From: an uncultured Algibacter sp.
GTDB lineage: Bacteria; Bacteroidota; Bacteroidia; Flavobacteriales; Flavobacteriaceae
Reading direction: 5' to 3'
DNA length: 64,000 nt
Assembly: GCF_947487575.1 (NCBI RefSeq)
Contig: NZ_CANKXG010000008.1
Span: forward strand, 179,451-243,450
Part shown: positions 2,701 through 52,395 of the stretch, one piece after another
Position numbering within the stretch: position 1 is the stretch's first letter
Layout: the number at the start of each line of letters is the position of its first letter
Program-made: the position numbers and the translations under genes
The notes under the pieces: model-generated
What the model saw: only the letters and a program-made list of their open reading frames with translations
What the model was told of the DNA's origin: nothing
Database searches by the model: none

Positions 2701-3555
2701 CTACTGACTTAATTTGAAGTTAACACTAACAAATCCTATTTGACGCGATGGTGCTTTAGAATCTGATGGCCATTTATGAGACATAGCAATTTTTTTTGCT
2801 GGCTCTAATAAGCATTGAGCCGTATTTGTTGTACCTTTTTGGCCAGGGTCTGCAGATACTACATTACCATTTTGATTAACAATAATTTTTACGATGACCA
2901 TTCCTGACTCATTACAATCTTGTTTCAATCTTTTAAAAGAAGCCTTACCCCTACCATTTAAACCGTAACCAACGCCTCCACTTCCGGTGCCTTGATCCCC
3001 AAAGTAACTTGGCGCATAAGGATTACCATCTAAGCTACCTTTATCTCCAGCTGTATTATCATTACCTTCACTTCCAGTTTCAGAACCTTCAGATTTACTA
3101 ACTCCACCAATTAAAGCATCCAGCTTCTTTCTTTTTTCTTCTTGTTCACGCTTTTCTTTAGCAATTCTATCCGCCTCGGCCTTAGCTTTAGCATCTGCAA
3201 TAGCTTTTGCTTTTGCTTCGGCTTGTTTTTGCTTTTTTATAGCAATTTCTTCTGCGTTTTCTTGTGTTAAAACTTCTTCTTTAACTTCTGATGACTTTGC
3301 AGGTTCTGGTTCTGCTTTTGAAACATCTGGTTGTGGTGGTTCTTCAATTTTACGAGGCTCAGACTTTACAGGTTTCAATGGCTGAATATTCCCTTTACCA
3401 AAACTTGAATTACCAAAATTTACGGCAACACCGTACTCTTCAGGCGGATCCATATATGTTGTACCAACCACAAACAACAAAAGCAACAGAATTACGGCTA
3501 TCAAAGCTGTTAATTTTGCTGAATTCTTTTCATGTTTTGTTTTAAAATACTTCAT
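2701..3555 (-). CDS. Energy transducer TonB-like protein
   Basis: Single N-terminal TM, Pro/Lys/Glu-rich linker, C-terminal TonB-like domain; adjacent to exbD/exbB. Confidence 0.8.
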   Translation of the reverse strand: MKYFKTKHEKNSAKLTALIAVILLLLLFVVGTTYMDPPEEYGVAVNFGNSSFGKGNIQPLKPVKSEPRKIEEPPQPDVSKAEPEPAKSSEVKEEVLTQENAEEIAIKKQKQAEAKAKAIADAKAKAEADRIAKEKREQEEKRKKLDALIGGVSKSEGSETGSEGNDNTAGDKGSLDGNPYAPSYFGDQGTGSGGVGYGLNGRGKASFKRLKQDCNESGMVIVKIIVNQNGNVVSADPGQKGTTNTAQCLLEPAKKIAMSHKWPSDSKAPSRQIGFVSVNFKLSQ

Positions 3556-3557
3556 CC

Positions 3558-3950
3558 CTATTTTGGCTTTACAGCTAAAACAACCTTAAATTTATTTCTA
3601 TTAGCGATATCCATCACTTTTACAACGTTTTTAACAGGAACTGACTCTTCTGCTCTTAGTATAATAGTTGGCTTCTCTTGAGAAGATAACGCAGCTAACA
3701 ATTCGTTTTCTAAAACACTTTCGCCAACTCGTTTTTGGTCTATATAATAGGTTAAATCTTTCTTTATACTAACTGCTACAGACTTTTTATTTTCTGTTTT
3801 TCCACTTGCTTTTGGTAATAAAATATCAATAGCATTTGTGGTTACTAAAGTTGAAGCAATCATAAAAAAGATAAGTAACAAAAACACAATATCTGTCATG
3901 GATGACATATTGAATTCTGGTGTAACCTTATTTCTTCCTCTAAAGTTCAT
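3558..3950 (-). CDS. exbD: ExbD/TolR biopolymer transport protein
   Basis: 'NMSSMTDIVFLLLIFFMIASTLV' TM and position between exbB and tonB. Confidence 0.9.
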   Translation of the reverse strand: MNFRGRNKVTPEFNMSSMTDIVFLLLIFFMIASTLVTTNAIDILLPKASGKTENKKSVAVSIKKDLTYYIDQKRVGESVLENELLAALSSQEKPTIILRAEESVPVKNVVKVMDIANRNKFKVVLAVKPK

Positions 3951-3951
3951 A

Positions 3952-4653
3952 CTAAGTAGGTTCGTTTAAATGATCTAAAAACTCTAACGAATTTGCTTCC
4001 ATTTGATATACCACTTTATCTGTTCTAACTACTAAGTGATTGTAAGCCATATATGCTACAATACCTACAATTAAACCAGCAACGGTAGTCGTCATAGCGG
4101 TATATAAACCACTTGCTAAAACGTCCATTTGTATAGAACCACCTGCGTTAGCCAATTCGAATATTGCTAATATCATTCCAATTACCGTACCAAGGAACCC
4201 AATCATTGGAGCAGCACCAGAAATGGTTGCTAGAATACTCACGTTTTTTTCTAGTCCATAAATTTCTAAACGGCCAGCGTTTTCGATAGCTGTGTTGATA
4301 TCAGCTAATGGTTTGCCTATTCTAGAAATCCCTTTCCCAATTAATCTTGATACTGGAGTGTTTTGTTGTGCGCAAAGCATTTGAGCTGAATCTATTTTAC
4401 CATTACTTACGTGGTCTTTAATTTGATTCATGAAATTAGCATCAACTTGCGATGCGGCTTTTATTGCAAAAATGCGTTCAAAATAAATATAAATAGCGCC
4501 TACTAAAAGTAAAAACAAAATGGCGATTATCAGTTGTCCTGCAAGGCCTCCACTACTAATTAACTCTATTATTGAAAGTGATTTTTCAACAGATTCACCA
4601 TCAGTTAGTACTTCTGTACCTTCTTGTGTGTCTTGTAATAATGTACTTAGCAT
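3952..4653 (-). CDS. exbB: MotA/TolQ/ExbB proton channel
   Basis: 'ISGAAPMIGFLGTVIGMI...MDVLASGLYTAMTTTVAGLIVGI' signature. Confidence 0.9.
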   Translation of the reverse strand: MLSTLLQDTQEGTEVLTDGESVEKSLSIIELISSGGLAGQLIIAILFLLLVGAIYIYFERIFAIKAASQVDANFMNQIKDHVSNGKIDSAQMLCAQQNTPVSRLIGKGISRIGKPLADINTAIENAGRLEIYGLEKNVSILATISGAAPMIGFLGTVIGMILAIFELANAGGSIQMDVLASGLYTAMTTTVAGLIVGIVAYMAYNHLVVRTDKVVYQMEANSLEFLDHLNEPT

Positions 4654-4752
4654 ATAATATTGATTTATTGCAAATGTATAACGTTTTGTTTTTTATTAAA
4701 GTATAATTGATATTTTAATATGCACTTTAAATGTTTTAACGGTTGCTGGATT

Positions 4753-4848
4753 TGCGTTAGGGATTGCAATGAAAAGCCCACAGCACCTCATGTTTTTGAG
4801 GTGCGCGGACTTGTAATGTAAAGCCCGACCCTTGTGGTAACGCCCAAA
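4753..4848 (-). repeat. Repeat family I, copy A (GGGCGTTACC...TAACGC)
   Basis: GCGTTA/TAACGC terminal stem and internal hairpin GCACCTCA/TGAGGTGC; 17 bp 3' of the nhaD stop. Confidence 0.8.
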
Positions 4849-4865
4849 TAACTTTTATTTAAATT

Positions 4866-6266
4866 TTAAAACCAAGTTCTTGTAAACATGAATGCTACTG
4901 CACCTACTAAGAAACCAACTAAAGCCAACCATGCTATTTTTTTTAAGTACCAGAAAAAATCTATTTTTTCCATACCCATGGCTACAACACCTGCAGCAGA
5001 ACCAATAATTAACATACTTCCTCCAGTTCCTGCAGAATAAGCAATAAAGTGCCATAACTCATTATCTATAGGTTCATGAAACATACCTAAACTAGCTGCT
5101 ACTAAAGGCACATTGTCTATTATAGCAGAACCTACACCTAACAATAATACCACTAAGTCTGAAACTCCTGTGTGCCCTTCTTGATGTAACTCTGTTCCTA
5201 ACATTGGCATTGTATCTTGTAATGACCCAGCAAAATTGAATAAGATTCCTAAAGATTCTAAAGCAGCTACGGCCATTAAAATTCCTAGGAAGAATAATAT
5301 ACTTGGTAATTCTATTTTAGATAATGAGTAATGTACAGGGCTATGCATGGCATGTGCATCGCTTTCTTCTGCACCATGCTCAGTCATACTAAACTTAGAG
5401 CTACTATAAATTTCTGCAAAAATAGCCACTACACCTAAAGACAACATCATACCAACATAAGGTGGTAAATGCGTTATTACTTTAAATATTGGAACAAATA
5501 CAATAGCACCTAAACCTAAATACAGCATGGTACCGCTAAACTTAGATTTCTTTTTTTCTTCAACTTCTTCCATTTCTAAATCCCCTTTAAAGGCTGGTAA
5601 AAATGATGCTATAAATGTTGGTACTGCCATACATAAAAATGATGGCAATAGTAAATACCCAATTAAATGCCCTGTGGTTACTTTTTTCCCAATCCATAGC
5701 ATGGTAGTAGTAACATCGCCAATTGGAGACCAAGCACCACCTGCGTTGGCGGCAATTATTATTAAACCCGCATACCAGATACGCACATTTCTGTCTTTTA
5801 CTATTTTTTGTAGAATAGAAATTAAAACAATGGTTGCTGTAAGATTATCAATTATTGCTGATAAGATGAAAGCCAGTATGGCAAAAATCCAAAGTATTTT
5901 ACTTTTTTTCTTAGTTTTAATAAAGTCTTTAATAGTTGAAAAACCATCAAAATAATCAATGATTTCAACAATAGTCATAGCTCCCAGAAGGAATACTAAA
6001 ATCTCAGAAGTTTTACCTAAATGATGCAATAGGGTTTCTTCCATTAAATGCATCTTTTCTTCGGAAGCTAAACCACCAAAATTTTCCATTAAGGAATGGT
6101 TTCCAGAGTCAAACCATTGTGTAAAGCCATCAATACCTAAAGCTATTAATGCCCAACAAATTGCCATCATGACTAGTGCCGGAATAAGTTTATCAATTTT
6201 AATACTATGCTCTAAAGTAATGGCTAAATAGCCCATTACAAACACTAAGATGATTGCTGCTTCCAT
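4866..6266 (-). CDS. nhaD: NhaD-type sodium:proton antiporter
   Basis: 'IDNLTATIVLISIL', 'ANAGGAWSPIGDVTTTMLWI', 'AIIDNVPLVAASLGM' NhaD motifs; multi-TM. Confidence 0.88.
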   Translation of the reverse strand: MEAAIILVFVMGYLAITLEHSIKIDKLIPALVMMAICWALIALGIDGFTQWFDSGNHSLMENFGGLASEEKMHLMEETLLHHLGKTSEILVFLLGAMTIVEIIDYFDGFSTIKDFIKTKKKSKILWIFAILAFILSAIIDNLTATIVLISILQKIVKDRNVRIWYAGLIIIAANAGGAWSPIGDVTTTMLWIGKKVTTGHLIGYLLLPSFLCMAVPTFIASFLPAFKGDLEMEEVEEKKKSKFSGTMLYLGLGAIVFVPIFKVITHLPPYVGMMLSLGVVAIFAEIYSSSKFSMTEHGAEESDAHAMHSPVHYSLSKIELPSILFFLGILMAVAALESLGILFNFAGSLQDTMPMLGTELHQEGHTGVSDLVVLLLGVGSAIIDNVPLVAASLGMFHEPIDNELWHFIAYSAGTGGSMLIIGSAAGVVAMGMEKIDFFWYLKKIAWLALVGFLVGAVAFMFTRTWF

Positions 6267-6274
6267 AAATTTAA

Positions 6275-7501
6275 TTAAATTAGTTGTTTTAGTGCAATTT
6301 CAAATGCTGTTGCACTCATTTCGGTTTTTGACTTATTTTTATTGTAAACTTGTTGTATGGCGTCTTTTATTCTATTCGAAGTATCATTAAAAATGGCCTC
6401 ATCTGTCATTTGCACTTTACGCTCCATAAAATACGCAAAAACTCTTGCCATTCCACAATTTGAAATAAAATCTGGAATTAAACTTACTTTATAATCAGTA
6501 TGCTCCATGATTGGCCCAAAGAAAATCTCTCTGTCTGCAAAAGGCACATTAGCACCGCAGGATATAACTTCTAGTCCATTATCAATCATTTCGTCAATTT
6601 GATGAATTGTGATTAATCGTGATGCAGCACAAGGTGCGAAAATTTCGGTATTTAAAGCCCATATCTTTCTATTAATTTCTTCGAAAGGAATTAAATTATC
6701 CGCCACTAAGGTATTATCTCTCTTAGCAAGAAAAAAATGACTTATATCATCAAAAGTAAAACCGTCTTCATTTATAACACCTCCTACTATATCTATAATA
6801 CCAACAATTTTAGCTCCCATTTGAGATAGATAGAAAGCAGCAGCAGCCCCTACATTTCCAAATCCTTGAACAACGGCCCGTTTACCTTTTATAGAACCTC
6901 CATAAATATTATAATACTGCTTTACAGCTTCGGCGACTCCAAATCCTGTAATCATATCGGCTACGGTATACTTTTTTGAAACATCTGGTGAATAATCTGG
7001 GTTTTCAATAACTTTAATTACACCTTGACGCAACTGCCCTATTCTATTAATTTTATCGGCTTCGGTGGGTTTAAAATGCCCATTAAAAACCCCCTCTTGC
7101 GGATGCCAAACTCCACTTTGTTCTGTAATAGGTATTACTTCATGTATTTCATCAACATTCATATCACCACCAGTACCGTAATAACTTTTTAATAATGGGG
7201 AAACAGCTGCATACCAACGCTCTAAAACACCTTTTTTACGAGCATCTTTAGGGTCAAAATTAATACCTGACTTAGCGCCACCAATAGCAGGACCAGAAAC
7301 CGTAAATTTGATTTCCATAGTTTTTGCTAAAGATAAAACTTCGTTCATATCAAGTCCTTTACGCATTCTTGTTCCACCACCTGCAGCTCCCCCACGAAGT
7401 GAATTAATAACCACCCATCCTTCTGCTTCTGTTTTAGAATCTTTCCAGTTAAAGATTATCTCAGGTGCTTTTTTCTCATACTTTCTTAATAATTTTTTCA
7501 T
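6275..7501 (-). CDS. Glu/Leu/Phe/Val dehydrogenase
   Basis: 'GGAAGGGTRMRKGLDMNEV', 'GPAIGGAKSGINFDP', 'VQGFGNVGAAAAFYLSQMGAKIVGIIDI'. Confidence 0.88.
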   Translation of the reverse strand: MKKLLRKYEKKAPEIIFNWKDSKTEAEGWVVINSLRGGAAGGGTRMRKGLDMNEVLSLAKTMEIKFTVSGPAIGGAKSGINFDPKDARKKGVLERWYAAVSPLLKSYYGTGGDMNVDEIHEVIPITEQSGVWHPQEGVFNGHFKPTEADKINRIGQLRQGVIKVIENPDYSPDVSKKYTVADMITGFGVAEAVKQYYNIYGGSIKGKRAVVQGFGNVGAAAAFYLSQMGAKIVGIIDIVGGVINEDGFTFDDISHFFLAKRDNTLVADNLIPFEEINRKIWALNTEIFAPCAASRLITIHQIDEMIDNGLEVISCGANVPFADREIFFGPIMEHTDYKVSLIPDFISNCGMARVFAYFMERKVQMTDEAIFNDTSNRIKDAIQQVYNKNKSKTEMSATAFEIALKQLI

Positions 7502-7660
7502 TCTACTTTCCTAATGACTCATTTATACAACATTCCTATAATCTATACGGAGATAAGTTTAAGCGAAGTTATAATTGAGTCATTAGGAAAATAAATTTTA
7601 ATTATTAATCTAACAAATATAAAAAACTAAAAAGCTATTAAGATTAATTTTTTATGATTT

Positions 7661-8719
7661 TTATGGGAGAAATATTCTACCAGAACTATGGTCTTTTGAA
7701 GCTCCTGTAACACTTTTCAAACAATTTACTTCGTTTCTAAGTTTTAATATCCCCAAAAAAGCAAAAACAAGGGCTTCTTTAAATTCTACTAAATCATTAT
7801 CAGGAATTAAAATATCAACTTTTTTATTCGATTTGATTTTTGAAATGATATAAGAATTATATGCGCCACCACCAGTAACTAGTACTTTAGAATTCTTTTT
7901 TAAAACTCGTGCTATTTGTTTTGAAATATGGTCTGAAAATGTTTTAAGAATATCTTTCTCTTCACCTCTTGCAGCTTCAATAAGCGGGAAAATATTTTTA
8001 TTAACCCACTCTAACCCTAATGATTTTGGTGGTTTTTCACTATAAAAATCTAACTCACTTAACATATTTCCCAAAGTCAGCAAATATGCTCCTGATGCTG
8101 CAATTTCACCCTTATCATCATAATCAAACCCTAATTGTTTAGCATATTTATTAAGGACAATATTAACTGGACAAATATCATAAGCAACCCGTTTATCATT
8201 CAAATCCATGGAAACATTTGCAAATCCTCCTAAATTCAAACAAAAATCGTATTCAGAAAACAACAATTTGTCCCCAACTGGAACAAGTGGAGCACCTTGA
8301 CCTCCTAGTTCAATATCCTGTACTCTAAAATCGCATACAACCATTTGTTGCAATATTTTAGCTAAAAATGGCAGATTACCTATTTGATAAGTTAATGCTT
8401 TATCTGGTTGGTGTAACGCCGTATGCCCATGAGAGCAAACAGCGTCAATATTTTCTATACCATATCTATCTATAAAATTTCTAATAACACCTCCTAAATA
8501 TTCAGTATAATCAACATCTATAATTTTTAATTCATCCAAAGAATTATTGACTAAATTCTTGAGTTTTTTATACCATTTAGAAGAATATTCAACAGTTTCA
8601 GCATTCAGAATCTCGAAACCCCAATTATCATTTAAATAAAACTTAGTATAAACTAAATCAATTCCATCTAAAGATGTACCAGACATTACACCAATTACAT
8701 AATATTCATCTTTCATCAT
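7661..8719 (-). CDS. anmK: Anhydro-N-acetylmuramic acid kinase
   Basis: 'GVMSGTSLDGIDLVYTKF', 'CSHGHTALHQP', 'VTGGGAYN'. Confidence 0.92.
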   Translation of the reverse strand: MMKDEYYVIGVMSGTSLDGIDLVYTKFYLNDNWGFEILNAETVEYSSKWYKKLKNLVNNSLDELKIIDVDYTEYLGGVIRNFIDRYGIENIDAVCSHGHTALHQPDKALTYQIGNLPFLAKILQQMVVCDFRVQDIELGGQGAPLVPVGDKLLFSEYDFCLNLGGFANVSMDLNDKRVAYDICPVNIVLNKYAKQLGFDYDDKGEIAASGAYLLTLGNMLSELDFYSEKPPKSLGLEWVNKNIFPLIEAARGEEKDILKTFSDHISKQIARVLKKNSKVLVTGGGAYNSYIISKIKSNKKVDILIPDNDLVEFKEALVFAFLGILKLRNEVNCLKSVTGASKDHSSGRIFLP

Positions 8720-39920: not shown

Positions 39921-40715
39921 ATGAACAAACTCCTAATTTTATTTTTTTTAATTATTTCTAGTTGCAAGACTGAAAACTTGATAGTTATAGCTGATTTACC
40001 AAATAGTTTAAAAGAAGCCTCTGCGATAGAAAAAATAACCAACTCAAATTTATTATGGACAATTGAAGACTCTGGAAACAAAAACAATATTTATGGATTA
40101 AATTTAAAAGGAAAAATTATAAAAGACATTGATATAAATAATTCCAGTAACATTGATTGGGAAGACTTAACCTCAGACAATCAAGGAAACTTATATATTG
40201 GCGACTTTGGTAATAATAGTAAAAATAGAGATGATTTTACTATATATAAAGTTTCCAATTTCAACACTAACAAAACAGAGGCTCAACGCATTAATTTTAT
40301 TTTACCAAAAAAAGTAAAACCAAAAGATTTTGAAGCTTTTTTTCTTTTTAAGGATTACTTCTATTTGTTTAGTAAAGAAAATAAATCTAGCATGCTTTTT
40401 AAAGTGCCTAACCAAGTAGGTTTACATACTGCAACATTAATAAAGGCATTTAACTTAGATGGTAAAAACCATCGCATTACATCTGCCGACATTAGCAAAG
40501 ACGGCAAAACAATTGTTCTCCTAAATCATAATAAACTTTGGAAAATAACTAATTTTAAAAACGACCTTTTTTTTGAAGGAAAGATACAAGAACTAAAATT
40601 TGACCATAATTCACAAAAAGAAGGGGTCTGTTTTAAAAACAATTCAAGTGTCTATATTACGGATGAGAGAACTAAAAATAAAGGTGGTAATCTGTATAAA
40701 TTTAATATCAACTAA
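39921..40715 (+). CDS. Hypothetical lipoprotein, propeller-like
   Basis: SSCK lipobox; 'GNLYIGDFGNNSKNRDDFTIYKV' beta-propeller-like. Confidence 0.65.
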   Translation: MNKLLILFFLIISSCKTENLIVIADLPNSLKEASAIEKITNSNLLWTIEDSGNKNNIYGLNLKGKIIKDIDINNSSNIDWEDLTSDNQGNLYIGDFGNNSKNRDDFTIYKVSNFNTNKTEAQRINFILPKKVKPKDFEAFFLFKDYFYLFSKENKSSMLFKVPNQVGLHTATLIKAFNLDGKNHRITSADISKDGKTIVLLNHNKLWKITNFKNDLFFEGKIQELKFDHNSQKEGVCFKNNSSVYITDERTKNKGGNLYKFNIN

Positions 40716-41117: not shown

Positions 41118-44100
41118 TTAAAAACCAAAACCAACTTTAAATGCTAAACGTAAACCATCATTACTATTAAATGCTGATAAATTTAATGTCATAATATCTG
41201 CTGCATTAGCAAAAACGCCCCCTCCTACTGATGTATTCCACTTACTCGAATTAAAGGCACTATCAAAAACTAACTCATTATCTACCCAAACACGCCCATA
41301 ATCAAAACCAGCAAATACACCTATATTTAGTGGCAGCAATCCTGTTTTAACTTTACGAAGGTTTAAACGCAAATCGGTACTTTGAGAAAATGAATTCTTA
41401 CCAGAAAAACGTTCATTTCTAAAACCACGAAGCCCATTATTTGCTCCTATGTTTGCTGCTTGATAAAACTCAAAATTGTCACCAAAAATAAAATGTGCTT
41501 TAGCGTTTGTAGCAAAAACCAATTGCCCACTTGACACTAATTTATAATCAAACCCAAGCTCTGGAATAAAATAAGCAAACCCTTTTGACTCTTCTAAATT
41601 AGATTTATAACCAAATTCAAGGCTTGTTTGCATTCCTATAGTAGGAAATGCTTCGTTATCTTTATTTTGATAACTGTACATAGCTTCAACTCCAATAAAA
41701 TCTTTGTGGTTTTCTTGCCCATTAGTGACATAAAATGTATTTATAAAACGATTGTTAGTTTCTTCAACTCCAATAGATTCATAACTTAAGCCTAATTTAA
41801 AATGCGCGCCTTGTTCTCCTCTCCAATTTAAAGACGGTGCGAATTTTAATGTGCTTAGCTTTACACGATTAAAATCTAAGTCTCTATCTATACCGTCGCC
41901 TTCATTAGCCTCTTCATTTGGTGTGCTATTTCCATACCCAAAGAAATTAATAGCAAAGTTAGGACTTGTATATTTAGCATTTAAACCCAAATTCCACACC
42001 CCTATAACATTCGCAAATTCTCCATTATATTCAAAATCGAACCCACTTGTAGCAAAATAATAAGAACCAGAAATAGTATGTTGAGACCCAAACGGATTAC
42101 GCTCAAATCCATAATTTGAAAGCGTATTTACAAAACCTAACCTAAAGCCGTCATCTGGATTGGAACCTATTAATGGCATAAACTGGTTGATTCTATTTTT
42201 TGGTTTAGTATGGTCATATATATTTGTTTCATAATCGTCAGTAAGATTCTTATGACCTTTTTTAGTTGTAAACTTATTTTTCTTAGACTTATAGTCATAC
42301 ATCCATACTTTCTTTCCGTTTTCAATAGAATACGTATCATTATTCTGCCCTCCAACCAATCTTAATTTAATATGGTTATCGCCTTCTCCTGTAACTTTAA
42401 ACAGATCTTCATCATCCAATCCATACATCCAAATTTCTTTGGTAACTTCTTTATTATAAGTTTTTTGATGTAAAAGAATTCCCTTTTCCCCATTTTTAAT
42501 TCGATATATAGATAGTTTCGTATTCCCATCTGGCAACCTTTCAATTTCAAACATATCATCTTTATCGGTTCCCAGAACTAATGGTATTTTATTAAGGGCT
42601 TCAAAATACCTATTTGCAATTTCTGGAAGGTTTTTAAGTCGTAATTTAAAAACACGTTTTATCTCTAAAATTGTTTCGTCTTGAACTTCTTTTGGGAATG
42701 ACTTAAACGCATTATCTATTACAGCATCTGATAAGTTCTTTTGAATGAATGCTACTTGCTCTTTCCATTGCTTTTCGGTAGTTTCATTTAGTAACATCAT
42801 ATCTAACGAAAACGGACTTGAATTGAATCCTTTAACATTTCTAACATCCTCATTAAAACCTTCCATTAATTGTAGAGGTGGTATAATTCGGGTTGCTATA
42901 TTCATTAAAGCACCGTCTCCCATATTAGAGAAGGCTTGATCTCTATCTCTAGGAATTGGTCTAAAAACAATTCTACCAGCTTCTTTAAACTCAGCCCAGC
43001 GCCATTGATCCATATGCCTATCCCAATCTCCAATAGCCATATCAAATAATCGTGCTCTTAAAAACATTTGGTCATCAACAATATATTTTTCGTCTTTACG
43101 TAGCTTCTTTATTAAGTCATCAGTACTTTCAATTTTATTGGAGTTACCAAAACTTTTAAGATTTCCATGTCCATCAGAAACGTGTTCTTCTATCATATAT
43201 AATTCATCACCAAAATCTGTATTAAAAGCCGCTAAAGCATTTTGTTTTGGAACAAAATACAGTACAGGGTTAGTATGGTATAAATTAACGGCGTCAGATA
43301 AATTGCCAGTTACAAATGGTGCATATGGATGTGAACCTGTATAAAAGTCTTGTATTATTTTTTCTGTAGTTGTACCGTCAAATTGCCCTTCAATATATTG
43401 ATCTTTAAAAGCCATAGCTTGCAAATATATCGTTGCACTTTTTCTAATGGCGCGCATAACATAGCGTTTCCCGTCTTCATTTATTAATTGTAGAGATTTT
43501 GATTGATGCCCTCCGCCTTTTCTATAAGGTTTTAAACCCCCAAACAAAGTATCTAAACTTACTGTTGGTGCATTTACTTTAGTACCGTAATATGCTCTGT
43601 AACGCTCTCCCCATATATATTTATAAAAACCACTTTTTGTAATTTCTTCCTTAGAATAAACTGATGCTAATTTTTCATTTGGAAACGATTTATAATCTAC
43701 AATACCATCTTTTTCGTCTACTGAAAATACTTCTGTTTGAAAAATAACTTTATTATTCTTTGCTGAATAAAACCGAACTGCTGATGACCCATCTACAAAA
43801 ACATCTAATCTAGCAAAACCAGAATCACTTGAGGAAAACTCGCCACTTACATTACGAGTTGCCGTTGATTTTGAACCTGCTCCGCTAACTATTTGAGGTA
43901 AATTATCTTGAACTAAATACTGTAAACTATGCTCATGCCCGGAAACAAAAAGCACTTTATCATTTTCTTGAGCTATAGTTACAATACGCCTTTTAAAAGC
44001 GTTATACTTTTTATTCTGCAAATCGGCAGGAGAAATGCCACTTGCTTTTCTTAATATATTTTTTAAAGTTCCTAAAACCGGAATAGGCTTTAAATGTGAA

Positions 44101-44813
44101 CCAAAACTGTATTGCCCGCCATGTGGTCCATTGGTAAACATAGGATGGTGCATTGCGATAATAGTTGTTTTACCACGTGCTTTTTTTATTAAACCTTCTA
44201 ATTCTTCAAAAAACCTGAACCTTGTTTTTATTTCACAGTCATCATTTATTGTTGGGTGTTTATCCCAGTTTGTTAAATACCATTCCGAATCAATTACAAT
44301 CATAACAATATCATCAGATATTTCTACTTTTTCAATAGGGCATCCATTTTCAGGTAAAAAAGTATTTTTCCCTAAAGCGTTTTCTATATATTTTTCTTGT
44401 CGTTTTAAACCTTTCAATCCATTGCTATACCAATCGTGGTTCCCTGGAATAAAAATAGTTTTACCTTTAAAATCTTTTACAGCCTCTGTCTGAACCTTTA
44501 ACTGATATTCTGCAAAAGCTCTATTTTCATCATTCTTTTTTGGCAATCCCTTAGGATAAATATTATCGCCCAAAAAAAGCGCTGTACTATTTTTTGATGC
44601 ATTACTTAATTCAGATTTAAATGCTTTTAAAGCTTCTGAAGACGAATCGATTGGGGAATTACCACCATCGCCAATTAAATAAAATGAATGTGCAATTTCC
44701 TTACTTGGAAAATTATTTTGCGCTGAAACATCTTTATATTGAGTCTTATAAGTCGCACAGGCATTTAGAACGGCTATAACGACAAGCAAGGAAGCTATTT
44801 TTTGAAACTTCAT
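41118..44813 (-). CDS. Lipoprotein with metallophosphoesterase domain, kinase-like middle domain and C-terminal outer-membrane barrel
   Basis: 'LIGDGGNSP', 'LFLGDNIYPKGLP', 'FIPGNHDWY', 'FVSGHEHSLQYL'; middle 'FDMAIGDWDRHMDQW...FRPIPRDRDQAF'; C-terminal barrel ending LAFKVGFGF; start trimmed to MKFQKIASLLVVIAVLNAC. Confidence 0.8.
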   Translation of the reverse strand: MKFQKIASLLVVIAVLNACATYKTQYKDVSAQNNFPSKEIAHSFYLIGDGGNSPIDSSSEALKAFKSELSNASKNSTALFLGDNIYPKGLPKKNDENRAFAEYQLKVQTEAVKDFKGKTIFIPGNHDWYSNGLKGLKRQEKYIENALGKNTFLPENGCPIEKVEISDDIVMIVIDSEWYLTNWDKHPTINDDCEIKTRFRFFEELEGLIKKARGKTTIIAMHHPMFTNGPHGGQYSFGSHLKPIPVLGTLKNILRKASGISPADLQNKKYNAFKRRIVTIAQENDKVLFVSGHEHSLQYLVQDNLPQIVSGAGSKSTATRNVSGEFSSSDSGFARLDVFVDGSSAVRFYSAKNNKVIFQTEVFSVDEKDGIVDYKSFPNEKLASVYSKEEITKSGFYKYIWGERYRAYYGTKVNAPTVSLDTLFGGLKPYRKGGGHQSKSLQLINEDGKRYVMRAIRKSATIYLQAMAFKDQYIEGQFDGTTTEKIIQDFYTGSHPYAPFVTGNLSDAVNLYHTNPVLYFVPKQNALAAFNTDFGDELYMIEEHVSDGHGNLKSFGNSNKIESTDDLIKKLRKDEKYIVDDQMFLRARLFDMAIGDWDRHMDQWRWAEFKEAGRIVFRPIPRDRDQAFSNMGDGALMNIATRIIPPLQLMEGFNEDVRNVKGFNSSPFSLDMMLLNETTEKQWKEQVAFIQKNLSDAVIDNAFKSFPKEVQDETILEIKRVFKLRLKNLPEIANRYFEALNKIPLVLGTDKDDMFEIERLPDGNTKLSIYRIKNGEKGILLHQKTYNKEVTKEIWMYGLDDEDLFKVTGEGDNHIKLRLVGGQNNDTYSIENGKKVWMYDYKSKKNKFTTKKGHKNLTDDYETNIYDHTKPKNRINQFMPLIGSNPDDGFRLGFVNTLSNYGFERNPFGSQHTISGSYYFATSGFDFEYNGEFANVIGVWNLGLNAKYTSPNFAINFFGYGNSTPNEEANEGDGIDRDLDFNRVKLSTLKFAPSLNWRGEQGAHFKLGLSYESIGVEETNNRFINTFYVTNGQENHKDFIGVEAMYSYQNKDNEAFPTIGMQTSLEFGYKSNLEESKGFAYFIPELGFDYKLVSSGQLVFATNAKAHFIFGDNFEFYQAANIGANNGLRGFRNERFSGKNSFSQSTDLRLNLRKVKTGLLPLNIGVFAGFDYGRVWVDNELVFDSAFNSSKWNTSVGGGVFANAADIMTLNLSAFNSNDGLRLAFKVGFGF

Positions 44814-44857
44814 ATTGAGGTGGATTAATTCTTTAAAGGTAATAATTACAATTCTAT

Positions 44858-45820
44858 TTAATTCCAATTTAAGCCACTTCGCTCATCCCAATAGGCTTTT
44901 GGAAAAACTTTTAAAGCTTTAAGTGATTTTAATTCTTCTGAAGTCAAGTTGAAATTTAAAGCCTCTAAATTTTGAGTTAATTGCGTTTTACTTGAAGCTC
45001 CGCTCAACACATATGTAGGCTCTAAACTATCCATTACAAAGCGTAATGCAATGGCATCAAAACCTGCTTCATACTTTTTTGACAATTGGTTTAAAATTTT
45101 ATATACTTCTGAGTAATGCTGAAATTTTTTATTTTGAAAAACGCGACCATTTGCCAAAGCTTCCTTAATAATAACTTTTTTTCCTTGTTTCAAAATAGCT
45201 TTTAAAATTGAAAAAGGAGATTGTTCAAAAATATTATAAGTTACCTGAAAACTATCAAACAATTCATGCCCGTCAATCTTAACTTTTAAAGCGGCCTTAA
45301 TAACTTCTTTTTGATTAGCACCGCTTGTAGTAATACCAATTTTTAAACCAGTCTCATTTTTTATTTGATGTAGTTGATTCAAAACATCTTCATTTTCTAA
45401 AATACCACTTTCAAAAGTTGCTGAATGCACTTGGTAGTATTTTAGGTTTGGCAACATTCCTTTTGAAACTTGCCATTGTTCTAGTAGTTTTTCTAGTGAG
45501 TGTTCTTTTATTTCATGTTTTCCGCTATAACCTAACTCCCAATTTGCCACATAAGTATAACCCCATTTTGTTCCTAAAATGGCATCTTTATGTTTGTTTT
45601 CCTCATTCCATTCTTTCAAAAACGCTTCGCCTTTTCCATAAGATGGTGCTGTGTCAAAATAACGAATGCCTAATTTATAGGCTTCATCTAAAACTGAAAG
45701 TGAATTTTCTTTAAATGCTTTTTCTGATTTATCAATAGCATCATTATCTCTAATATTAATATACTCTGGCCGCCCTAAAGCTGCTAATCCTAAGCCTATT
45801 TTCGTATTTGAATTACTCAT
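44858..45820 (-). CDS. Aldo/keto reductase
   Basis: 'GIRYFDTAPSYGKGEAFLKEW', 'NLKYYQVHSA', 'YVLSGASSKTQLTQNLEAL'. Confidence 0.9.
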   Translation of the reverse strand: MSNSNTKIGLGLAALGRPEYINIRDNDAIDKSEKAFKENSLSVLDEAYKLGIRYFDTAPSYGKGEAFLKEWNEENKHKDAILGTKWGYTYVANWELGYSGKHEIKEHSLEKLLEQWQVSKGMLPNLKYYQVHSATFESGILENEDVLNQLHQIKNETGLKIGITTSGANQKEVIKAALKVKIDGHELFDSFQVTYNIFEQSPFSILKAILKQGKKVIIKEALANGRVFQNKKFQHYSEVYKILNQLSKKYEAGFDAIALRFVMDSLEPTYVLSGASSKTQLTQNLEALNFNLTSEELKSLKALKVFPKAYWDERSGLNWN

Positions 45821-48100: not shown

Positions 48101-49657
48101 TTATGAACTACAAGATAACATAGAACAGCCTACTTTATGGCGTGCCCACTCTGGTCGTTTTTCAAACCATTTTTCATATTCGGGTTGCTCATTATAAGGT
48201 TTTTTAAGCATTTGAAATAATTCATCTATCAACTTATAATTACCTTTATTAGCATCATCAATGGCTAATTGTGCCATATAGTTACGGAGAACGTATTTTG
48301 GGTTTACAGTATTCATTTTTTGTTTTCGTTCTGTTGGACTAGTATATTCCTGTTGTAATCTAACTTCATAATTTAAAAACCAAAACTCCCATTCTTTTTT
48401 TACTTCATCTGGCATATTATCAAAGTCATAAAACGCATCTTTTAAAACTTGAAACCCTGTTTCTTCATCTTTAAAATCGCTTAAATTCCTAAAAAATATG
48501 GTCATATCTGTTTCTACTAATTGCAAGTTTTCTTCCAGATTTTTAATAAAATCTTCATCGTTATCAACCTCTTCATAAAGCCCTATTTTAGCTTTCATCA
48601 TTTGTAAATTCTGCGATTCAAAATCAGTTTTATATTGATTTAAAATAGCTTCCAAAGGTTCTGCCTCCTCAATTAATGGATAAATTGCATTTGCTAGTTG
48701 CAGCAAATTCCACAAGCCGATATTTGGTTGATTTCCGTAACGATACCTTTTATGTTGCCTATCAGTTGTATTTGGCGTCCACCCATAGTCATAACCTTCT
48801 AACCAGCCGTAAGGCCCATAATCTATAGTTAAACCTAAGATTGACATGTTATCGGTATTCATCACACCATGCACAAAACCTACACGTTGCCATTCAATAA
48901 TCATTTGTAATGTACGCTTTGAAACTTCTTTAAAAAAAGCAATATAAGTATCTTTTGAAGGCGCTCCTAAATGTGAAAAATGGTGTTTTATTGTATAATC
49001 TACCAACTTTTTTAAATTTTCATCATCTTGTCTTGAGGCAAAAATTTGGTAGTTACCAAAACGCAAAAACGATTCGGCTGTTCTACATACAATCGCACCT
49101 TTTTCGTAAGCGGGATTGCCATCATACATCACATCTCGCATGACTTCGTCTCCAGATAACACCAAAGACAAAGCTCTTGTAGTTGGCACTCCCAAATGAA
49201 ACATGGCTTCACTACACAAATATTCACGAATTGAGGAACGTAATACTGCTAAACCATCGGCTGTTCTAGAGTATGGTGTTTCGCCCGCACCTTTTAATTG
49301 TAATGCCCAATTTTTATTTTTATGTTCAACTTCACACAGATTAATAGCACGTCCATCACCTAATTGCCCTGCCCAATTACCAAATTGATGTCCGCCATAG
49401 CACATTGCATACGGGGTTGTGTTTTCTAGCACTTTATTTCCAGTAAATACTTTTAAAAAATCATCGCTTTTAGCATCAGTTTTTGATAAGCCAAGATTCT
49501 TTAACATTTCTGGAGACACATGCAACACCTCTGGTTTTGCTGTTTGCTTTGGTGTTACATACGAAAAACAGGCTTTAGCAACCTGCCTTCTAGAATTTTC
49601 TAAAATGGGGTCTGTAGGTAATTCTTGATTAAATTTATCTTTTATTTTGAGTTTCAT
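48101..49657 (-). CDS. selO: SelO/YdiU family protein AMPylase
   Basis: 'GHQFGNWAGQLGDGRAINL', 'QLKGAGETPYSRTADGLAVLRSSIREYLCSEAMFHLGVPTTRALSLV', 'HGVMNTDNMSILGLTIDYGPYGW', C-terminal CSMLSCSS. Confidence 0.93.
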   Translation of the reverse strand: MKLKIKDKFNQELPTDPILENSRRQVAKACFSYVTPKQTAKPEVLHVSPEMLKNLGLSKTDAKSDDFLKVFTGNKVLENTTPYAMCYGGHQFGNWAGQLGDGRAINLCEVEHKNKNWALQLKGAGETPYSRTADGLAVLRSSIREYLCSEAMFHLGVPTTRALSLVLSGDEVMRDVMYDGNPAYEKGAIVCRTAESFLRFGNYQIFASRQDDENLKKLVDYTIKHHFSHLGAPSKDTYIAFFKEVSKRTLQMIIEWQRVGFVHGVMNTDNMSILGLTIDYGPYGWLEGYDYGWTPNTTDRQHKRYRYGNQPNIGLWNLLQLANAIYPLIEEAEPLEAILNQYKTDFESQNLQMMKAKIGLYEEVDNDEDFIKNLEENLQLVETDMTIFFRNLSDFKDEETGFQVLKDAFYDFDNMPDEVKKEWEFWFLNYEVRLQQEYTSPTERKQKMNTVNPKYVLRNYMAQLAIDDANKGNYKLIDELFQMLKKPYNEQPEYEKWFEKRPEWARHKVGCSMLSCSS

Positions 49658-51198: not shown

Positions 51199-52395
51199 AT
51201 GCTGATTGAAGCTACTGAAAAATTTGTAATAAATCTTTTAAATGATAAGCTAGACACCTCGTTTACCTATCATAATATTACACATACACAGCGTGTTGCC
51301 GAAGACGCAAAAGCTTTGGCTGAACTTTTAAATATTGATGAAACTCAAAAAAACCTTCTGTTAATTGCAGCATGGCTACACGATACTGGTTACACAAAAG
51401 GCATTAAGCATCATGAAGATGAAAGTGTAAAAATTGGAACGGCTTTTTTAAAAGAGCAAAAATGTCCTGCAAATGATATTAAAATTATTTGCGACTTAAT
51501 TTTAGCCACCAAAATGGAAGCTATTCCTAATAACACTTTAGAAAAAATAATTAGAGATGCAGATTGCTCGCATATTGGAAGTAAAAACTATCTGGAAATT
51601 TCTGAACTCCTAAGAAAAGAATGGGAATTACAATGTAATAAAACATATTCTGAAATAGATTGGTTAGACGAAAACATTAATTTCCTATCAACAAAGCATC
51701 GTTTTCACACTCCTGAAGCTGCAAGTATTTGGGATAAGCGTAAAGGTAAAAACCTATCTGAACTACTTAAATTAAGAAAGAAAATTAAGACTGAAAACAA
51801 AAAGCTAACTCAGAGAAAAGAAGAGTTAAACTTTAAAAAGAATAAGATAGAATTGCCTGAACGTGGTATTGAAACTGTTTTTAGAGTAACTTTAAAAAAC
51901 CACATGCAATTAAGTAATATAGCCGATACTAAAGCTAATATATTATTATCGGTTAATGCTATTATTGTATCATTAGTTCTATCTAACTTGGTTTCAAAAC
52001 TAGACAACGCTTCTAACGCTTATCTTATAATACCAACCGTCATTTTTGTGATTTTTACAGTAATATCTATTATACTTTCTATATTAGCTACTAGGCCAAA
52101 TGTTACTAGTGGAAAATTCAATAAAGAAGATGTTGCAAATAAAAAAGTAAATCTTTTATTCTTTGGGAATTTTCATAAAATGAGCTTAAAAGATTTTGAA
52201 TGGGCCATGGGAGAAATGATGCAAGACAGAGATTACCTTTACTCTTCTATGAAGAAAGATTTATATTTCTTAGGATTAGTCTTAGATAAAAAATATAAAA
52301 TTCTTCGTATTACATATTCTGTATTTATGATAGGTATAATTGTAAGCGTTATTGCTTTTGCTATTGCGTTTAAATACGATGGAGGAGTTTCTTAA
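51199..52395 (+). CDS. HD-domain phosphohydrolase fused to Pycsar-effector-like transmembrane domain (PycTM/DUF5706)
   Basis: HD motif 'LIAAWLHDTGYTKG...HHEDESV'; C-terminal 'VFRVTLKNHMQLSNIADTKANILLSVNAIIVSLVLSNL' plus TMs. Confidence 0.82.
   Translation: MLIEATEKFVINLLNDKLDTSFTYHNITHTQRVAEDAKALAELLNIDETQKNLLLIAAWLHDTGYTKGIKHHEDESVKIGTAFLKEQKCPANDIKIICDLILATKMEAIPNNTLEKIIRDADCSHIGSKNYLEISELLRKEWELQCNKTYSEIDWLDENINFLSTKHRFHTPEAASIWDKRKGKNLSELLKLRKKIKTENKKLTQRKEELNFKKNKIELPERGIETVFRVTLKNHMQLSNIADTKANILLSVNAIIVSLVLSNLVSKLDNASNAYLIIPTVIFVIFTVISIILSILATRPNVTSGKFNKEDVANKKVNLLFFGNFHKMSLKDFEWAMGEMMQDRDYLYSSMKKDLYFLGLVLDKKYKILRITYSVFMIGIIVSVIAFAIAFKYDGGVS

Follow-up and report, generated by a model that had tools for sequence, protein, structure and literature searches.

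A predicted protein kinase-like domain between the phosphoesterase and the Omp85-type barrel of an exported Bacteroidota protein family

The described proteins that most resemble the one studied here form the 'Metallo' subfamily of Omp85 proteins, defined by Heinz and Lithgow (2014) as carrying a PF00149 domain before the barrel and discussed by them as a metalloprotease, with a kinase appearing nowhere in the main text (PMC4104836). Omp85-Metallo shares with our protein the association of PF00149 and an Omp85 barrel in the absence of POTRA, and on this match of architecture the two are very probably the same family; the approximately 370 residues lying between the domains and the clusters with NTT genes are not described in that work (PMC4104836). 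PlpD, a type Vd autotransporter, also joins an enzymatic N-terminus to an Omp85 barrel, but it bears a patatin lipase and POTRA, contains neither kinase nor phosphoesterase, and is not a lipoprotein. In bacterial Pnkp-type fusions a single chain carries a kinase together with a calcineurin-like phosphoesterase, as seems to be the case in our protein, although theirs is a P-loop kinase devoted to cytoplasmic RNA repair. The middle domain, hereafter KIN, has to be compared with atypical kinases. The CotH spore-coat kinases, among its best PDB matches, have a kinase fold and an extracytoplasmic role, as predicted for KIN, but differ in their catalytic-loop motif and lack phosphatase and barrel. 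CtkA/HipA offers the best PDB match (3akk) and has a catalytic loop of the D-R-H style found in KIN, yet neither HipA nor CtkA has a phosphoesterase or a barrel joined to it. The Fam20 kinases of the secretory pathway resemble KIN in being exported and atypical, with active and pseudokinase paralogues; they differ in belonging to the animal Golgi, where the secretory pathway provides their ATP, and show no sequence match to KIN. KINtaro comprises 72 kinase-like families (PMC10870513), among which KIN might figure; prior recognition of KIN as a kinase domain was not found in the literature searched. A previous reading of the DNA letters (the sequence-only reading) had held that a phosphatase at the surface with a kinase-like domain would be unusual. 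The phosphoesterase-Omp85 pairing as such was already known (PMC4104836); the domain within it appears to be an unrecognised kinase-like fold in a new setting, exported and linked to both a phosphatase and a barrel.

The window, that is, the whole stretch of 64,000 nucleotides analysed, comes from an uncultured Algibacter sp. (Flavobacteriaceae). The gene, of which the 3.5 Mb genome has one copy, is found at 41118-44813 on the minus strand, as are all its features given below, and encodes 1231 aa from an ATG at 44813 that is the likely start, in line with the end given in the sequence-only reading, inside a TTG-started ORF spanning 41118-44867. A lipoprotein signal peptide, read from the sequence (44757..44813), runs up to a lipobox L-N-A-C whose Cys is ORF residue 37, and the resulting C-A-T start is seen in many orthologues as well. 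It is followed by a calcineurin-like metallophosphoesterase (MPE; residues ~57-385, 43713..44699), already proposed in the sequence-only reading and matched by Pfam PF00149 (Metallophos) at 5.4e-9 (37.2 bits against a cut-off of 21.5), whose five metal-site motif blocks are intact in 63/66 homologues. The C-terminus is an Omp85-superfamily barrel (residues ~895-1249, 41121..42185) with a GLRGFR motif, and it ends in ...VGFGF, in agreement with the barrel with a terminal Phe that had been announced. The window barrel matches NCBIfam Omp85_fam at 1.5e-13, under that model's own cut-off, while that of an orthologue (L155) lies above the Pfam cut-off for PF01103 (Omp85; 6.8e-13); no POTRA domain was seen in the protein. 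KIN occupies residues ~408-761 (42585..43646), a region examined with an AlphaFold2 model and with Foldseek against the PDB and a viral library. It has no Pfam family match, even at E 10, and its nearest named relatives are from Algibacter and other Flavobacteriaceae. A beta-rich linker (residues 766-894, 42186..42572), with three strands predicted at its start and no family match, connects it to the barrel.

The AlphaFold2 model of KIN, computed from an alignment of 78 homologous regions 19-83% identical to that of the window, has a mean pLDDT of 95.5 and a pTM of 0.93. Its strands and helices follow the order of kinases with the motifs at the expected places: a Gly-rich strand pair, a Lys strand, a hinge, a long helix, the catalytic loop, a beta hairpin and a DxD. 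Foldseek against the PDB returns CtkA first (3akk, 1.4e-5) and CotH 5jd9 at 9.1e-5, followed by RIO2, ADCK3, PI4KIIα and Fam20C (5yh0, 4kqa); the top 50 matches are kinase-fold or kinase-like proteins, and the named matches in the viral model library include phosphoinositide and protein kinases as well as a CotH kinase. The comparison search with one other model, that of the protein KIN2 described below, did not favour kinases. TM-scores to any single kinase are only 0.3-0.5, at ~10% identity, which counts against a kinase reading and implies that no solved kinase is close to the family. The KIN alignment, searched as a sequence profile against PDB chains, gave nothing meaningful, and at E 10 the window protein matched neither CotH (PF08757) nor HipA_C (PF07804, the HipA/CtkA family), for each of which 2/78 homologues had weak matches (best 0.016 and 0.037, respectively). 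Fam20 was likewise not matched by the window protein at E 10, nor did it figure among the 25 matches listed for the alignment. We conclude that KIN is strongly predicted by modelling to have a bilobal protein kinase-like (PKL) fold, with atypical kinases as its closest relatives by fold, as the sequence-only reading had suspected from a few motifs. Neither of the two outcomes that would have refuted that reading, a middle region of another fold or motifs varying among homologues, was seen in the model or in the alignment.

Those motifs can be placed on the model. The Gly-rich loop GGGHQSKSL (451-459, 43491..43517), with Gly and Gln 92-94% conserved, falls between N-lobe beta strands; R472-x3-K476 (43440..43454, 93-94% conserved), at the end of N-lobe strand 3 (E79-87 of the model), provides the candidate ATP-binding Lys; the near-invariant putative catalytic loop GDWDRHMDQWRW (613-624, 42996..43031) comes directly after model helix 210-223; and PRDRDQAF (639-646, 42930..42953, 93-95% conserved), with the candidate metal-binding, DFG-like Asp, comes after beta hairpin 233-250, as DFG does after beta8 in kinases. 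The motifs quoted beforehand (GDGGN, GDNIYP, GNHDW, GHEH and GKRYVMRAIRK, the last at residues 466-476) are all in the sequence, and so are LFDMAIGDWDRHMDQW (607-622, 43002-43049) and IVFRPIPRDRDQAF (633-646, 42930-42971), although these two had been placed some 10-15 bases away.

Among 87 homologues, down to ~20-30% overall identity, R606 is invariant and K476, D614, D616, R617, H618, D641 and D643 are 93-99% conserved. The GGGxQ loop (451-455), R472, K476, D507, E560, R606, D609, the stretch D614-W-D616-R-H618-x-D620-Q621-W and P639-R-D641-R-D643 are near invariant. The candidates for ATP-binding Lys, catalytic Asp and metal-binding Asp (K476, D616, D641, D643), roles that we assign by position, are 93-95% conserved. 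In this alignment the conservation of the kinase-like motifs, which had been proposed as a check, is far beyond chance. These four residues are kept together in 80/87 homologues, and six of the seven others have lost two or more of them (joint-loss permutation p 0.0002, with a statistic that ignores phylogeny); judged by this pattern of retention and loss, the motifs behave as one active site. Two observations weigh against a kinase. KIN has D-x4-Q where most kinases have D-x4-N, and the six multi-loss proteins, all of them KIN-barrel forms without phosphoesterase and from six different genomes, are by their residues clear pseudokinases. L061 apart, every MPE-fused protein examined keeps the Asp proposed as catalytic and the two proposed as metal-binding. 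The coexistence of intact and pseudokinase KIN-barrel copies resembles the Fam20C/Fam20A kinase/pseudokinase pairs (PMC7948968); one locus, L076, carries such genes in tandem, a clear pseudokinase at 3452-6112 and an intact copy at 6123-8687.

The family is widespread, with matches in 134/297 genomes (~45%) of an even sample of Bacteroidota, some of these matches being to the phosphoesterase or the barrel alone. It comprises MPE-KIN-barrel proteins of ~1250 aa, KIN-barrel proteins of ~860-930 aa, lone KIN proteins of ~420-500 aa and MPE alone. At one locus (L083) KIN, MPE and barrel are three adjacent genes, an order repeated in a related genome (L093, judged by length and match position), and at another (L096) a KIN gene adjoins an MPE gene. 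Nearly all readable N-termini look exported: the fused forms have lipoboxes, KIN-barrel forms with a readable start have Sec signals, and each lone KIN protein begins with a membrane anchor or signal, so that the kinase-like domain appears from these signals to lie outside the cytoplasm in all forms. In surface lipoproteins of Bacteroidota the lipobox Cys is directly followed by an acidic export signal. The family proteins do not show it: their Cys context, CAT[YFH]K.., is poor in acidic residues from +2 to +6, a mild argument for the periplasmic side. Of the 'surface-associated' enzyme proposed earlier, export and membrane anchoring are retained, and the enzymes may face either side of the outer membrane.

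The neighbouring genes suggest an ATP source in some lineages. In six genomes, all of one Bacteroidota family (f23, which contains G287; loci L114, L155, L158, L159, L160, L164), TLC/NTT ATP/ADP translocase genes cluster on the same strand with MPE-KIN-barrel or KIN-barrel genes, typically in the order NTT, NTT-HEAT, cyclic-nucleotide-binding protein, MPE-KIN-barrel; the chance of this linkage is ~2e-8, a rough estimate that assumes independent genomes. The small cyclic-nucleotide-binding protein sits between NTT-HEAT and MPE-KIN-barrel in L155 and L160, and in L164 it sits beyond NTT-HEAT. Free-living bacteria were already known to have NTT-HEAT genes, in some cases followed by a cyclic-nucleotide-binding gene, their function being unexplained (PMC5381601). 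Against the reading we prefer, no TLC match was found in the genome from which the window comes.

Clusters of Omp85, a lipoprotein that we call KIN2, NTT and MPE also occur in f23, and without MPE in a distant family. KIN2 (P0001) is an undescribed protein of 560-660 aa, lipoprotein-like in several copies, found beside Omp85 and NTT(-HEAT), and sometimes MPE, at L089, L091, L092, L109, L110, L157, L162 and L163. It shows HipA-like motifs (YLIKFD, LNDTDRRDAN, QDFG), with the set Lys, Glu, DTDRRDAN and DFG, and in three homologues without a nearby NTT gene (L111, L112, L113) the active-site motifs with Lys and Asp are gone. We considered KIN2 as a second kinase, but fold support failed: its AlphaFold model is poor (pLDDT 58), Foldseek is dominated by FN3-like matches, profile comparison with KIN gave no match, and Pfam yields one weak HipA_C match at 0.25. 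Its kinase nature hence depends on the motifs only.

Other associations are older and wider than the NTT clusters. PPK1 polyphosphate kinase lies within the flanks of 9/40 wide loci (L053, L060, L061, L064, L067, L074, L075, L079, L084), in 8 genomes and 6 families, with a chance of linkage of ~2e-13 by a rough estimate that again takes genomes as independent, and it is found 11-14 kb from the family gene in at least 12 genomes of f23. A SixA-like histidine phosphatase often accompanies PPK1 beside family genes. PycTM or HD-PycTM genes are present in 15/40 wide loci. In the window, the HD-PycTM membrane protein is encoded on the plus strand at 51199..52395 (PF18967 8.6e-37, HD 6e-9); in 10/10 Flavobacteriaceae compared such a gene is at most 7.2 kb from the family gene (at most 1 kb in six), and in many relatives it directly adjoins it. 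At L069, a lone KIN locus, a PycTM gene lies upstream. SdiA-regulated-like genes occur in 12/40 wide loci; the window's copy, a lipoprotein gene at 39921..40715 on the plus strand, has no Pfam match at 1e-5, and its relatives flank the family in 35 loci. The ORF at 48101-49657, 3 kb from the gene, we take to encode a SelO/YdiU-type protein (AMPylating pseudokinase family); it was dropped as a functional partner, the recurrent neighbours found being other genes.

The best explanation, and in our judgement a probable one, is a kinase/phosphatase that is exported and kept at the outer membrane. It builds on what was computed, namely the domain order, the predicted fold, the conserved and jointly lost motifs, the export signals and the gene association; the ATP donor, the phosphotransfer reaction, the substrate, the opposition of MPE and KIN and the periplasmic side are what we infer from these. 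The chain would be anchored by its lipid at the N-terminus and by the Omp85-type barrel at the C-terminus, and such anchoring would place the phosphoesterase and KIN next to each other beyond the cytoplasm, the periplasm being the likeliest compartment. KIN would bind ATP and metal through K476, D616, Q621 and D641/D643 and phosphorylate a protein, sugar or lipid of the envelope, and the phosphoesterase in the same chain would strip that phosphate or clear the nucleotide product. Free ATP is not expected in the periplasm, which counts against this explanation; in some lineages the TLC/NTT carriers encoded next door may bring it across the inner membrane, and in lineages lacking them it would arrive by some other route.

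The same data can be read differently. KIN could be a kinase fold that catalyses something else, for instance AMPylation, like SelO, or, like SidJ, amino-acid ligation; or it could be only a nucleotide sensor controlling the phosphoesterase. Some families with the kinase fold are known to carry out other reactions (PMC10870513), the loop DWDRHxDQW, where Gln replaces Asn, is unusual, and in the six pseudokinase paralogues the active site is gone although the protein is otherwise retained; but the retention of the candidate catalytic and both metal Asp in most members looks like a conventional phosphotransfer site, and we regard such a reaction as unlikely. Equally hard to favour is a role in phosphate or nucleotide scavenging, with the phosphoesterase as the main enzyme, a barrel admitting or binding the substrate and KIN binding nucleotides for salvage. 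The PPK1 linkage, both in the nine wide loci and at longer distance in f23, would then reflect phosphate storage, and TLC/NTT carriers may import nucleotides (PMC5381601), but the conserved catalytic motifs of KIN would be left unexplained, and so would the KIN-barrel and lone-KIN proteins that have no phosphoesterase.

A further alternative concerns location and is compatible with any of the proposed reactions: as in PlpD, where an Omp85 barrel is also C-terminal to the enzymatic domains (PMC4104836), the barrel could bring the two enzymatic domains onto the cell surface or beyond it, in the manner of a type Vd autotransporter. We find this improbable, as the N-terminal lipid would need flipping, no POTRA was seen and the residues after the lipobox Cys are unlike the surface signals of Bacteroidota lipoproteins. 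The exported kinase/phosphatase can be extended to a more general and rather doubtful picture, in which Bacteroidota would have an energised extracytoplasmic phosphorylation: NTTs would export ATP to the periplasm, membrane-anchored KIN, and possibly the unrelated KIN2, would phosphorylate the envelope, a fused or neighbouring phosphoesterase would reverse this, and the Omp85 barrel would act as an outer-membrane port.

In bacteria, extracytoplasmic kinases are a rarity, owing to the presumed lack of ATP beyond the cytoplasm. A family of exported proteins joining KIN, phosphatase and barrel, encoded in some lineages beside ATP/ADP translocases, would, if true, make periplasmic phosphorylation directly testable. 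It would also suggest what the NTT-HEAT carriers of free-living bacteria might do, and the kinase superfamily would gain an unlabelled family that is widespread in Bacteroidota.
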